Assembly (NCBI GenBank): GCA_903919615.1
Contig: CAIXIX010000434.1
Coordinates: forward strand, 1 to 56,140
Direction of reading: 5' to 3'
Origin: an uncultured Chthonomonas sp.
GTDB lineage: Bacteria > Armatimonadota > Chthonomonadetes > Chthonomonadales > Chthonomonadaceae
DNA length: 56,140 bases
In this document: positions 32,806 through 38,471 of the stretch, in pieces
Layout of the letters: each line of letters opens with the position of its first letter
Numbering within the stretch: position 1 is the first letter of the stretch
Made by a program: the position numbers and the translations under genes
Notes under the pieces: model-generated
The model's input: the letters and a program-made list of their open reading frames with translations, nothing else
Told to the model about the DNA's origin: nothing
Database searches by the model: none

Positions 32806-34305
32806 TTACTTGCCTGATTTTTTTATTAGCTTGGCATCTGCGGGGAGGGCATAGGTGAAGGCCGATTGCGGTACTGGTTTATCAATTGTAACGTCTTCGA
32901 ACGTTTCTGAAAGAATGAGATCCTGATCTGGCACTTTCGCAGCTGCGCGCACGACGAGGTGTGTGCGAGGGTCGAAGAAGAGTACAAAGATAAGCCCACC
33001 TTGCATCGGGAATTCAAGTGCATCCCACACTTTTGAATCAACGGTGATGCCGCGGTGTACCGTGCCTTTGTATAGTATGCCAAGTATCTTAGGATCTTTG
33101 AAAGCGCGATCCTGCAAAAGGACAGACACGAGATAGCTGCCAGCCACCGGGTCAAAATCGTCCTGATCCAGTTTGATGTCCGATATGTTTGCTGGAGCTG
33201 GACCTTTTGTATATTCACTCGCCCTGAAATCGATCAACGACGTACCGTCTGTAACAACCGCAACAGGCGATCTCGTAAGACTCTTGAAAGCATATTTGTT
33301 CGGCTTTGACATGGCAAGCGCGAATCGAGCTGAATTATCTACTTTTTTTCCGTCTACGGTGCCGGTGACTCGAAATGTTGCCGTATGGCTGTAGGTCTGC
33401 ATATTGCTGTATGCCTGTGAAGCCTGTTTCATCAGTGCGACGACATCCGTCTTTGTTCCTGGTACTTGTCCCGCTACGAACGCAGCAAGTTGCGGGCGAA
33501 GTGTGTTGAGCACTGCATCGCCAGGCCGCTGTGGCGCCATGAAATGATCCACTTTAATTGCGTTGACAGGAGGTGTATATAAGAAGACTGCCGGATCGAC
33601 GGGCTTATTGAGTTTAGCGTCGCCAATCTGTTCTTCTATATCTACCGAAGAGTCGGCCGATTTCAGTTTCAGACTTGTACGTACAATCTGGTGCTCATCG
33701 TTAAAGTAGACGTTGTACGGCTCTTGCGTTGCACCAAGCAGAATATGTAGCGGAGTTAGCTTTCTGCCATTTTCATTGACAACTGGATCGATGGTTGCGG
33801 TTGACAGCGCTTTGCGAATGTCGCGGTCTGCTTGAGCATCCCCTTGCAGCATAAGTGCAATCAGATATCCTCCGATTGGTTCGAACGTAATGTCATCGAC
33901 AATATTGATTCCCTTAAAGTCTGTAGGCGCCCTTTTTTCGATGTACTGATTTCGATTGCTGTCGTAGTTTAGGAATGTCTTGCCGTTCGACACAGCCGCC
34001 GTTCCGGTGGGATTTGTAATGTCGTGATAGCAGAACCTGGCGTTCGATCTGTCTAAAGCAAGAACAAATTTGGATGTCGAGGCCGCAGTGCCATTCTCAG
34101 CCGATCGAGTTGTCTTCTCCGTAATTTCGGAGTAGAAAGTCGAGACTCCCAGGTAAACAGCGGTGGCTTGCTTTATCAGCGTAGCCACCTCAGGACGCAT
34201 TGTTTGCTGTGTGTGATCGTCTGGATTTGCATATGCTGTTGCGGCGGTCATGAAGAATGCCATGGCTGCTATTGTTTTCCGCCAACTCTGTTGCTTCCCT
34301 AACAT
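32806..34305 (-). CDS. Periplasmic DUF2092-like protein with two tandem domains
   Basis: 499 residues. A signal peptide (about 1-27, ending TAYAN) exports it. Two similar halves (about 35-245 and 275-495) each begin with a PEVATLIKQA or DVVALMKQASQAYSNMQTY helix. Each continues with YSHTATF/FYSEITEK-type strands and a GGYLIALMLQGD or GSYLVSVLLQDR motif, and ends with a P..F.Y.PP element. This is the LolA/LolB-like beta barrel fold of DUF2092, predicted to bind a lipid or lipoprotein. The internal duplication is clear. ATG 34305 has AGGAG 8 nt upstream; the longer frame from 34332 has none. Confidence 0.75.
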   Translation of the reverse strand: MLGKQQSWRKTIAAMAFFMTAATAYANPDDHTQQTMRPEVATLIKQATAVYLGVSTFYSEITEKTTRSAENGTAASTSKFVLALDRSNARFCYHDITNPTGTAAVSNGKTFLNYDSNRNQYIEKRAPTDFKGINIVDDITFEPIGGYLIALMLQGDAQADRDIRKALSTATIDPVVNENGRKLTPLHILLGATQEPYNVYFNDEHQIVRTSLKLKSADSSVDIEEQIGDAKLNKPVDPAVFLYTPPVNAIKVDHFMAPQRPGDAVLNTLRPQLAAFVAGQVPGTKTDVVALMKQASQAYSNMQTYSHTATFRVTGTVDGKKVDNSARFALAMSKPNKYAFKSLTRSPVAVVTDGTSLIDFRASEYTKGPAPANISDIKLDQDDFDPVAGSYLVSVLLQDRAFKDPKILGILYKGTVHRGITVDSKVWDALEFPMQGGLIFVLFFDPRTHLVVRAAAKVPDQDLILSETFEDVTIDKPVPQSAFTYALPADAKLIKKSGK

Positions 34306-34395
34306 GCGCGGTCTCCTGCTACGCTCAGACATTTGATAACTTAAAGATTGACAATGCCGAGCGCAGCTAACGCTGCGCTCGGCATTGAGGAGGAT

Positions 34396-34617
34396 TCAGG
34401 TGTGATCGATATCCATTGCTGACACTCTGCGTTCGAACTTTGCCAGTTCCTCTGTCAGCAACCCATGCATTATCGAATCTGTATCGCGCGTTTCGGCAAG
34501 GGCGGTGTAGAGCAGCTCATATCCTTCGATCATGCAGCCTTCGAGTGCGAATTTGCGCGCGCGCGCTCCGATTTTAAACGCTCGCATCTCCTGAGTCGTC
34601 AGATTGGGTTGGGACAT
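34396..34617 (-). CDS. Small helical hypothetical protein
   Basis: 73 residues (MSQPNLTTQEMRAFKIGAR...), mostly amphipathic helix, no signal peptide, no family I recognise. Its ATG lies 44 nt inside the end of the large glycosidase-like gene, so it is probably translated by coupling. A second in-frame ATG lies two codons upstream (34623). It separates that gene from the DUF2092 gene. Confidence 0.5.
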   Translation of the reverse strand: MSQPNLTTQEMRAFKIGARARKFALEGCMIEGYELLYTALAETRDTDSIMHGLLTEELAKFERRVSAMDIDHT

Positions 34618-37600
34618 TTTCATTAGTAGTTTCCGAAGGATGGATCCACAGGTAACTATCGTTTTCGGTAGATCTATGTTCTAGAATATCCGAAACTGAC
34701 GACTTAATCTCTTCCACGATAGCGTGGTCGATAGGTTGTGTTTCTCCAGCATCTGCAGCTATTTCGGGTGATCCCGGTATTATTGCATCCGAAGCAGTTC
34801 GTCTGCCCCGCCCGCGACCGCCGCGTCTGCGTCTGCGTCTGCCGCCTGCAACGATTTCTCCGGTACCATCCGCATCGGCGTCTCTATAGTTATCGAAGAT
34901 AAATTCCACGGGCTCGGTTGGAAGTGCATCGAAGTCGACGTCTTGCAGCGACGAGATGTCCATGTTAAGGACGGCTTCTAGCGTTTCGAGATCCGAGTTT
35001 CGTGGAAGCTGCGGCTGCGGCTCCTTACGAATTTCCGGCACTCGGGCTGGAGGTGGCTCCGGGTTTGGCCTGCCAGGAGCTGGTGGCGCCACATTTGGAA
35101 GGCCGATCATGATAAATCGGTCTGCTGAACCGACGCAGAAACTTCTTGTTTCCCCACTGCGAAGGAAGAAGCGATGCTCTCTAATTTCATCCGCAATATG
35201 GCGGCTATCGTTTACATCGTAGAGGCCTGTGGCATCAGGAAGCCGAAGCAGGCGATGCCCCTCTTTTACTGCGTGAATGGTAACATAGCCGTTGCCAATA
35301 TCTATGATATCGTCGCCCTGCGGAGTCCATACATGTACGCCCGCATACCTGCAGATGCCTCTCAGCAAGTCGACGGACACGTAAGGATCGCCTACGAAAA
35401 CGGACTTCCAGTCCCCACAGTTCTTAACCGCGATTGAGGGCAACCCTGATCCCTGATACTCGGCAAGTGTTGTAGAATCCGGATCATCTACATAGAATGA
35501 CGGGTTCAGGCGTTCTCGAACTCCGACTTCTCTTCCCGATAGTCTGTCCGTTAGAACGTGATGGGTATCGACGATTCTGGATCCGATTTCAGAGTGCCAC
35601 TCTTGCTGTCGAAGCGCTATCCCGATGGTGCTCGTGGCGGTCTCTTCCATTGCTCCGCCAATCGATGGTCGTTCTTCGCAGCTGCCTGGGGCATAAATCC
35701 AGGCCAGGGTCTTGCCTGAGTTCTGCAGCTTCTCCTTAACGGCGGCTTGCAGTTCCGTATTCAAGCGATAAGGCGTCATAAATAGATACAGCTTCGCCTC
35801 GACGGGAAACGTATCGGACAGAATATCGCTTTGAAGGTAGACACCAAATGAGACGCCAGCTCGCTGCAGAGAGTCTCTAAGGCCCGATGTTAGTCGGCGC
35901 AGGAATTGCTCGTTCTTTTGCACGTGCAGGAGGCTTCGCTCATCGATTAGTGCGACGACATCCGGAATTCGCGAGTGCTTTCGTCTGTCGAGCTGCGCCT
36001 TATATCGAGATACAAAGACCGCGATCTGGCTCCAGATTGTTTCATCGTCGAGCCATCCTTCTCCCCAAAGGTCCATGAAACCAATGCCCGTAGCATGGGC
36101 GACCGTTCTACCTAGTGCACGCTGCTGAGCCTGCTCAGTATCTCGGCGGTCGAGGAGGCGAATGTTGAAGTCTTCCGGATCCTGTGCTTCTGGCGCAAGA
36201 AATGTCTTAGTATCGTCTTCCGACAGCCATAGTTTGCCATGGAGCAGAGGAGAATCGATAGGAGCTGGGATCGATGCTGCTCCGCCAGGCGTTCTATCAC
36301 GATACGATGGCGGACCACAAATAATGTCGATGGCCTTGGATTTCTCCAGGAGGCCAAGTGCCAGGTGTCCGCTAAAGGTATGCCCAAATTCAAACGTGTA
36401 ACCGTAGCAAACGGAGACCAGTGCGTTGTGTGACGCCGCAATTTTAACCGACGTGGCGAGGTCGATAAGCCTTTTGGCAGTTATCTCCGAGGTGTACTCG
36501 TGGAAGTCGATGATCGCACGTTCACGCCTGGGTTCATAAAAGGATCGGTTTTCATTTGTGCGAGGGGACTGAGCAGGTATTTCAACGGAGCCAAACTGAG
36601 CATCTCCATCGTACCATGCGGCTCGCAATAGAACAATATTGTTTCGGTATTTCGACTTCAGCCATTCTCGGAAGCCATCTCGGTTTGCAATGCAGCGATC
36701 GTAACCCAGAGACTGAGGATGGAACCATTCGCCGCGCTCAAGGTGGTAGCCTGCGATGCGACTGGTATAGGCGCCTTCGTTCGTTTGTGTAAGGAAGGCA
36801 ATCAGTTTTTCTACGGATCTCTGGGCTTCTGTCCAGAAGATTTCGCTGGCAACTGACGGATCACCGGATGAGCCATCGGCATAGGTAGCGACTTCGCTTG
36901 GGTTTGCACGTTTCCAACCTCGAGCCGGTACGAAGACGACACGAGGAATAACGTATCCGTCTGGATCGGAATTGAGGATCGCCGATATTCGCTCAGCGGC
37001 GACCTCAAAAGCAAGCGAGTTATCGGGGGCAGGGCAGGGAAGCTCAACGAGCGTTGAGTGGATGTGAACACCTGCCGCTGCTGCCGCCCGAATTTCCGCC
37101 AGGGGTTTGGCCCGATTCTCCGTATCATCCATATTTCCGAAGAAGAGGATTGGAGCAAATCCCGAGCCATGGATATGTATTTCGGGCATGCCGTTTCGGA
37201 GGACAATGTGTGCGCCAACGGTAAGGTCAAGGTCCAACGGAGGGTGATACTCCGTTTCGACCGGCAATAAATCCACTTCTGGGATCTCGACCTCTACCTG
37301 GCGGGCAGTAGATCTCTTACTTCTGCGCCGCCGGGCTCTACCTAGAGCAAGCTCACCCGTTTCAGGATCACGTCCATCCTCGTCAACGGAAATATCCTCG
37401 TCTGGCGCTGTCGTCTCATCAACGCCAGGGATGCCAATTGGCGCCACAGGCTGCACACCGGGGATTGGCGAAGATTCGCCGCGGCGACCTCGCGTTCCGC
37501 GTCGTCTGCGTCCCTGGCGTTCCACGAGTTCCGATGGGGCATCTGGAGCGATTGCCTTCGAGCTTTCGGTTTCTTCGCGTGTGATCTCCGCATCTGGTGC

Positions 37601-38251
37601 AGGAATTACAACTGGCAGAATTTGCCCGGACGCGGGACGCGGCCTTGAGCGGCGAGATCTTGACCCGCGCCCGACTGGCGTCGGCGCAGACGCTGGATCT
37701 AAAACAGTGGGCGACTCCTGATCTGGAGTAACAAGATCCTGTTCGGAAACAGCTTCAGTCTGAGGCGCTTCGGTTGGTTTCGACCGGACGGGGCGAGCGC
37801 GGCGGCGTGAGGCTACTGTGCGCAGTTCCTCGGCAGGAGGCGGAGTGGATTCGGGCTCTGCAGGTGGCGTCTCAGCTGGTTCGTCGGCCTTCTTCGCTCC
37901 GCGCAGCCTGCGAGATCGAGATGGCGCTGCGATCTTCTGTAATTCAGTCCCGAGAGGCTCTGGCGAGGCAATATGCTCACCTGTCGCGGGTTCCCGCGCG
38001 GAGTCTTCAGCCAAAGCAGGCGGCGCTTTAGGCTTTCTGCGCGAAACTGGGGGACGCACAGGCGTGACGGATTCTGCTGCGGGAGGTGTAGGCTCTGATG
38101 CAGCGGCTGTCCCCGTCTGCCGAGAGCGTTGTCGTCGCCTCGGCGCGACAGGCGGCGCATCTGTGCCAGACGTCGTCTGCGCTGCGCTCGATGCCGCGTC
38201 CCCTTGTTCCAGAGGGGGCGTCGAGCCTGGCGTCAGTTCGTCGAAGCTCAT
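34574..38251 (-). CDS. Glycoside-hydrolase-like (GH42/GH-A type) core with RNase-E-like disordered arms
   Basis: 1225 residues, no signal peptide. Residues 1-325 are disordered, rich in Pro/Glu/Ala with Arg clusters (APRRRQRSRQ, GRGSRSRRSRPRP, ERQGRRRRGTRGRRGE, RARRRRSKRS). From about 350 to 1000 is a TIM-barrel-like region resembling beta-galactosidase GH42-type proteins. It contains SGFAPILFFGNMD, a GYHLERGEWFH segment with candidate acid Glu (505 or 508), and KLWLSEDDTK with candidate nucleophile Glu678. The C-terminal arm has GGRRRRRRGGRGRGRR (about 1135-1150). Such arms normally bind RNA or membranes in RNase E. ATG 38251 has AGGAG 8 nt upstream; the frame to 38341 runs through the upstream hairpin and is unlikely. 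Catalysis and substrate are not proven. Confidence 0.6.
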   Translation of the reverse strand: MSFDELTPGSTPPLEQGDAASSAAQTTSGTDAPPVAPRRRQRSRQTGTAAASEPTPPAAESVTPVRPPVSRRKPKAPPALAEDSAREPATGEHIASPEPLGTELQKIAAPSRSRRLRGAKKADEPAETPPAEPESTPPPAEELRTVASRRRARPVRSKPTEAPQTEAVSEQDLVTPDQESPTVLDPASAPTPVGRGSRSRRSRPRPASGQILPVVIPAPDAEITREETESSKAIAPDAPSELVERQGRRRRGTRGRRGESSPIPGVQPVAPIGIPGVDETTAPDEDISVDEDGRDPETGELALGRARRRRSKRSTARQVEVEIPEVDLLPVETEYHPPLDLDLTVGAHIVLRNGMPEIHIHGSGFAPILFFGNMDDTENRAKPLAEIRAAAAAGVHIHSTLVELPCPAPDNSLAFEVAAERISAILNSDPDGYVIPRVVFVPARGWKRANPSEVATYADGSSGDPSVASEIFWTEAQRSVEKLIAFLTQTNEGAYTSRIAGYHLERGEWFHPQSLGYDRCIANRDGFREWLKSKYRNNIVLLRAAWYDGDAQFGSVEIPAQSPRTNENRSFYEPRRERAIIDFHEYTSEITAKRLIDLATSVKIAASHNALVSVCYGYTFEFGHTFSGHLALGLLEKSKAIDIICGPPSYRDRTPGGAASIPAPIDSPLLHGKLWLSEDDTKTFLAPEAQDPEDFNIRLLDRRDTEQAQQRALGRTVAHATGIGFMDLWGEGWLDDETIWSQIAVFVSRYKAQLDRRKHSRIPDVVALIDERSLLHVQKNEQFLRRLTSGLRDSLQRAGVSFGVYLQSDILSDTFPVEAKLYLFMTPYRLNTELQAAVKEKLQNSGKTLAWIYAPGSCEERPSIGGAMEETATSTIGIALRQQEWHSEIGSRIVDTHHVLTDRLSGREVGVRERLNPSFYVDDPDSTTLAEYQGSGLPSIAVKNCGDWKSVFVGDPYVSVDLLRGICRYAGVHVWTPQGDDIIDIGNGYVTIHAVKEGHRLLRLPDATGLYDVNDSRHIADEIREHRFFLRSGETRSFCVGSADRFIMIGLPNVAPPAPGRPNPEPPPARVPEIRKEPQPQLPRNSDLETLEAVLNMDISSLQDVDFDALPTEPVEFIFDNYRDADADGTGEIVAGGRRRRRRGGRGRGRRTASDAIIPGSPEIAADAGETQPIDHAIVEEIKSSVSDILEHRSTENDSYLWIHPSETTNENVPTQSDDSGDASV

Positions 38252-38295
38252 TCGATGGTCTCCTGGTTTTAAATCATCAAACTCTAAGTGTAAGA

Positions 38296-38351
38296 ATACT
38301 GAGATGTGTCTGTCGGAAACAGATACCGACAATTTAGCCACATCTCAGTAT
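38296..38351 (-). promoter_or_regulatory. Long two-tier hairpin in the leader of the glycosidase-like gene
   Basis: Perfect 13-bp arms ATACTGAGATGTG (38296-38308) and CACATCTCAGTAT (38339-38351) enclose a 6-bp pair TGTCGG (38311-38316)/CCGACA (38326-38331). It lies between fabF and the next gene and 45 nt before that gene's ATG. There is no U run, so it is not a classical terminator. It could be an operator pair or a structured leader. Confidence 0.55.
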
Positions 38352-38471
38352 ACTCTATTGGTGTTTTCATCAGGCTAGCAATAATCTGGCGGAGCCAGAG
38401 CCAACAGAAACTGCTCCTCAGTAACCAACCATTTGACTCTCTCGCATGCTCGGAGCTAATCTGTTGTTTTG

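Follow-up and report, generated by a model that had tools for sequence, protein, structure and literature searches.

A GH42-like protein of Armatimonadota with a predicted cytoplasmic location and long disordered arms bearing arginine clusters

The window, a contig of 56,140 nucleotides from an uncultured Chthonomonas sp., contains a gene for a protein in which a GH42-like core is flanked by two long arms predicted to be disordered and rich in arginine clusters. The chances are about even that this is a cytoplasmic GH42-like glycosidase, whose conserved arms tether it to, or condense it on, RNA or some other polyanion. Computed here were its fold, the disorder, the conservation of the arms and of two candidate catalytic glutamates, the grouping of the armed proteins in one clade, the lack of a recognisable export signal and a promoter-like box of its own. 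If the reading is true, a glycosidase-fold protein has been moved into the cytoplasm, given condensate-type arms and retained in several classes of a phylum that has received little study. Judging from the sequences sampled, the case is more general than a single genome and concerns a large part of the Armatimonadota. No description of such a protein was found in the open-access literature searched, a coverage outside which most subscription journals lie.

The open reading frame described in the earlier note, which gave no strand, is real and lies on the minus strand. The gene and its leader have the following features.

34574..38251, minus strand: coding sequence of 1225 amino acids with an ATG start, for the putative cytoplasmic GH42-like protein with a disordered arm at either end (from orthologues, ribosome-binding site and promoter position)
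38260..38264, minus strand: Shine-Dalgarno-like AGGAG, 8 nt upstream of the ATG (from sequence)
38347..38353, minus strand: promoter-like -10 box GTATACT, conserved in loci of the Chthonomonadaceae, the window's family

Translation probably begins at the ATG at 38251, because the MSFDEL N-terminus is common to the protein and its close orthologues, the AGGAG is suitably near, and the alternative GTG at 38341, judged unlikely, would be only about 6 nt downstream of the -10 box. A GTATA[AC]T box is present 87–191 nt (mostly 87–111) upstream of the start in 10 of the 14 loci of the window's family, where 0.025 are expected per 260 nt, and in several of these loci it is accompanied by a TTGACC-like -35 sequence. 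Co-transcription with fatty acid genes had been proposed in the earlier note; this operon found no support: a conserved promoter-like box separates fabF from the gene, and only some Chthonomonadaceae have fabF ahead of it at all. A 54-nt hairpin at 38297–38350, just upstream of the gene, overlaps the -10 box. It was discarded as a leader element: the leader is overall only modestly structured (z -1.9), the hairpin is unique in the genome, none resembling it was seen at the matching place in relatives, and 38297–38350 has no Rfam match. Downstream of the gene, 32806–34332 encodes an apparently secreted protein with two DUF2092/LolA-like halves.

The core and its candidate catalytic residues are located as follows.

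35012..37258, minus strand: GH42-like core, residues 332–1080 (AlphaFold and Foldseek; GH42 structures match over nearly the whole length)
36728..36730, minus strand: E508, candidate acid/base after the strand taken as beta4, in GYHLERGEW (conservation; follows model strand 182–186)
36218..36220, minus strand: E678, candidate nucleophile within the presumed strand beta7, in KLWLSEDD (conservation; model strand 355–360)

The predicted core can be called GH42-like with confidence, the assignment being weak by sequence and strong by fold, and this agrees with the GH42/GH-A-like core first noted. The AlphaFold model, built from 32 sequences, has a pLDDT of 87.5 and a pTM of 0.88. In a Foldseek search of the PDB the top 27 matches are all GH42 structures, the best being 3tts (E 1e-23, probability 1.00, TM about 0.6–0.7). 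The GH42 beta-galactosidases 3tts, 4oif and 5dfa share the fold over nearly the whole core, with 12–14% identity. Pfam PF02449 gives the window protein E 0.26 and 11 bits, below the cut-off of 21 bits, and is matched at E<=0.1 by 24 of 32 family members, the best at 7e-11; a profile search of PDB sequences returns GH42 enzymes at 2e-5. Searches of Pfam, NCBIfam and PDB sequences with the single protein returned marginal GH42 matches and nothing else.

E508 is present in 66 of 68 armed and 24 of 27 unarmed sequences, and E678 in 66 of 68 and 25 of 27 respectively. Armed proteins and their secreted relatives also have R437, W446, Y616, R653, D680 and W733 in common. Both candidates are plausibly placed in the model. 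They are separated by 170 residues, much as in Gan42B, whose acid/base is E159 and whose E323 is given in the title of entry 5dfa. E508 can be placed after beta4 only by allowing one inserted residue with respect to the NE motif of GH42, where the profile alignment is ambiguous, and the Asn that precedes the GH42 acid/base is absent, the sequence being GE instead of NE.

To our knowledge, arms such as those on either side of this core are not known from GH42 enzymes. Their features are listed here.

37259..38251, minus strand: N-terminal arm, residues 1–331, predicted disordered, net charge about -1, a block polyampholyte (AlphaFold pLDDT and charge segregation)
38120..38140, minus strand: arginine cluster 1, RRRQRSR, residues 38–44 (cluster analysis)
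38027..38041, minus strand: arginine cluster 2, RRKPK, residues 71–75 (cluster analysis)
37787..37807, minus strand: arginine cluster 3, RRRARPV, residues 149–155 (cluster analysis and sequence)
37637..37660, minus strand: arginine cluster 4, RSRRSRPR, residues 198–205 (cluster analysis)
37481..37519, minus strand: arginine cluster 5, RQGRRRRGTRGRR, residues 245–257 (cluster analysis)
37313..37333, minus strand: arginine cluster 6, RRRRSKR, residues 307–313 (cluster analysis)
34577..35011, minus strand: C-terminal arm, residues 1081–1225, net charge -16 (mostly pLDDT <50 apart from short helices)
34967..34996, minus strand: short predicted helix in the C-terminal arm, residues 1086–1095, around DLETLEAVL (AlphaFold; sequence recognisable in close relatives)
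34802..34840, minus strand: C-terminal Arg/Gly motif RRRRRRGGRGRGR, residues 1138–1150 (cluster analysis and sequence)

Residues 26–331 and 1105–1225 are predicted to be disordered. In the model of residues 26–1225, residues 26–331 have a pLDDT of about 27–38 with zero secondary structure, and the C-terminal arm has a pLDDT below 50 from residue 1105 on, after the short helices. The N-terminal arm (330 residues) contains 42 R, 8 K and 51 D/E. It has five runs of at least three R/K, with 17 residues in such runs compared with 2.9 expected from shuffles (p=0.0005), and the C-terminal arm contains GGRRRRRRGGRGRGRR (p=0.0025 against shuffles). The disordered arginine-cluster arms of the earlier note are thus borne out. 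Charge segregation in the N-terminal arm of the window protein is 2.1 times that of shuffles (p=0.0005), and among orthologues it exceeds shuffles in 65 of 66 N-terminal and 55 of 57 C-terminal arms. Because the N-terminal arms are net neutral and the C-terminal arms acidic (median net charges -2 and -10.5 across orthologues), the arms are, by their sequences, block polyampholytes with alternating charge blocks rather than histone-like tails.

The window protein has no hydrophobic N-terminal segment, and hydropathy, used here in place of a dedicated predictor, reveals no signal peptide in armed orthologues with a well-defined start, as the earlier note had observed for the protein itself. The hydrophobic starts of a few armed open reading frames are an artefact of upstream-extended start choice. 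Evolution and structure prediction lend good support to a cytoplasmic armed enzyme.

Scanning GTDB contigs turned up 45 relatives; apart from one Verrucomicrobia MAG, each belongs to Armatimonadota or to a MAG with no named phylum. Among 121 sampled genomes of the phylum there is a strong single-copy group in families f1–f3, f6, f14, f15 and f24, alongside a broader set of weaker paralogues. Of 25 genomes of the window's class, 24 have exactly one copy at E<=1e-100; the remaining one is a fragmented assembly, and its congeners do have the gene. The 66 armed sequences in the tree form one clade with support of 100 that broadly tracks taxonomy, and every orthologue with an intact N-terminus has the Arg/Lys-rich arms, so that the arms are conserved in homologues. 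This indicates, on the present sampling, that inheritance of the armed protein has been largely vertical within several Armatimonadota classes. The earlier note had named homologues without arms or with a signal peptide, and the lack of a GH-like fold, as grounds for refutation. Neither applies: the predicted fold is GH42-like, and the homologues with signal peptides and no arms are paralogues outside the orthologous clade. Most paralogues have a hydrophobic segment at the start, and arms of this kind are absent from all of them. Secreted GH42-like paralogues such as L052, in the window's own genome, L106 and L107 share the core, and most keep both candidate glutamates, but they are armless, have mostly hydrophobic N-termini and fall on the other side of the tree. 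The same genome also encodes a degenerate paralogue (L054) and a bona fide GH42 protein (L263). L052:2946-4541 and L053, at contig ends C431 and C519, are possibly one secreted armless gene split by the contig ends. L054:3-2009 (G000:C515) has neither arms nor an obvious signal peptide, its GEW motif is replaced by GVQVLCGDAGAF, and its contig carries an RNase E/G gene about 15 kb away.

The ancestor of the armed protein would have belonged to a mostly secreted enzyme family, and would have lost its export signal and gained the two long disordered arms, this being the probable direction of change. If the RNase E tail is a guide, the arms may then touch each other and a polyanion, most likely RNA, through numerous weak contacts. 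The enzyme would thereby be concentrated at a cellular site, possibly ribonucleoprotein-rich zones or a condensate, where it may act catalytically on an intracellular glycoside. The RNase E tail of Caulobacter has alternating charged patches and supports phase separation with RNA (PMC12510024), and the AR1 and AR2 segments of Escherichia coli RNase E are arginine-rich and probably RNA-binding (PMC3997798). Long disorder, alternating charge blocks and arginine-rich patches are shared with these C-terminal tails, so that the earlier description of the arms as RNase-E-like is apt as to kind. Homology is not claimed: the arms here are mainly N-terminal, and they are carried by a GH42-like core with no RNase E/G catalytic domain; the RNase E/G of the genome is a separate gene.

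DNA, polyphosphate, acidic lipids and acidic proteins are further possible ligands of arginine patches. It is unlikely that DNA or polyphosphate is what the arms hold on to, anchoring the enzyme at the nucleoid or at granules in the manner of the AlgP and PhaF tails. Basic clusters in disordered tails are common to those bacterial cytoplasmic proteins and the one described here. Polyphosphate granules are positioned by the AlgP tail, peptides of which bind DNA, and the presumed role of PhaF is to anchor granules at the nucleoid (PMC9239181). However, AlgP and PhaF are strongly cationic proteins, with net charges of +55 and +35 and lysine-rich tails (PMC9239181), and these tails are KPAA repeats, whereas the arms here are arginine-based with acidic linkers and the N-terminal ones are close to neutral.

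Rather unlikely, too, is a reading in which acidic membrane lipids, or a partner protein that is acidic, are bound by the arms, so that the enzyme sits at the envelope close to where lipids are made. Anionic lipids are among the general ligands of arginine patches, and the gene follows fabF in some Chthonomonadaceae, but the N-terminal arm has no predicted helix, the fab adjacency is lineage-specific and the promoter-like box is separate. At the very C-terminus a linear motif, FRKRD or a near variant, is conserved in family f14 (L086, L088, L089, L098 and L101), and AVQWRR is found near the C-terminus in a related clade (L033, L041 and L042). These motifs suggest a specific protein partner, as does the DLETLEAVL helix of close relatives. 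In f6 and the HR15/HR16-type clades a HAD phosphatase gene is directly upstream of the armed gene (L022-L025, L029, L033, L035-L037, L041, L042 and L044), and several of these overlap it as called. In many HR15/HR16-type (Fimbriimonadales-type) loci panD is further upstream and hisF downstream. Neighbours differ in the remaining families, and the neighbourhood yields no pathway.

A bolder reading, and quite an improbable one, is that Armatimonadota have in this protein their equivalent of the RNase E tail. The glycosidase fold would then be an oligomeric platform and the arms a scaffold for a ribonucleoprotein condensate, in hosts with an armless RNase E/G, and the non-catalytic role would be strong enough to outlive catalysis in one genus. 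Chthonomonadales RNase E/G proteins (L126-L139) have a long acidic insertion between segments of the N-terminal (S1-like) region. As a second bearer of arms the RNase E/G of this order was rejected, since it has acidic insertions and no arginine arms; the comparison covers RNase E/G only and rests on relatives in the order, the copy in the window's own genome being cut by a contig end. The armed protein hints that bacteria lacking RNase E tails may depend on unrelated proteins to organise polyanions.

GH42 enzymes are commonly trimeric, and trimers would multiply the valency of the arms. It is very unlikely in general, however, that the protein is a catalytically dead scaffold in which the fold is merely an oligomeric platform, an option raised in the earlier note, since nearly all armed sequences keep each candidate glutamate along with the six further residues named above. 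Inactivation does seem to have occurred in one genus, g25 of family f14, which by its position beside named Fimbriimonadales in the tree would be Fimbriimonadia. One or both glutamates are replaced in three genome assemblies of this single lineage (E678L in G051, E508N with E678L in G012, and E508I in G078), with arms and fold retained. This suggests that fold and arms can persist when the catalytic pair is gone. Catalysis is apparently lost and the arms kept in g25, therefore catalysis is not always the conserved function. Secreted armless proteins, armed proteins with the catalytic pair and armed proteins with lost residues form a natural series for probing the function of charge-block arms.

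In close orthologues 92% of the R/K in clusters are kept as R/K, while other arm residues are 54% identical, and for most close pairs dN/dS is about 0.2–0.5 in the arms and 0.03–0.1 in the core. The arms are therefore translated and under constraint, which by these comparisons falls on composition more than on sequence. Neutral low-complexity drift with no function is highly improbable: the arms do evolve several times faster than the core and align poorly between families, but their dN/dS values and preferentially kept clusters, the charge blocks of nearly all orthologues over several classes and the near-uniqueness of the arms in a sampled proteome speak against it. That proteome is of a relative (2.4 Mb and 1928 open reading frames, about 70% of the genome), where no protein but the orthologue has four such clusters within a stretch of disordered type, and the RRRRRRRGGRGRG motif is confined to it. 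In the window's own genome a pattern for the C-terminal Arg/Gly motif has three matches, of which the one in this protein alone reads RRRRGGR with no Ser. A common proteome module with the arm motif was thus not found in the own genome or in the sampled 70% of the relative's. A 143-residue basic open reading frame rich in Ala, Pro, Lys and Arg (G022:C1:2256292-2256720) resembles a histone H1-like tail.
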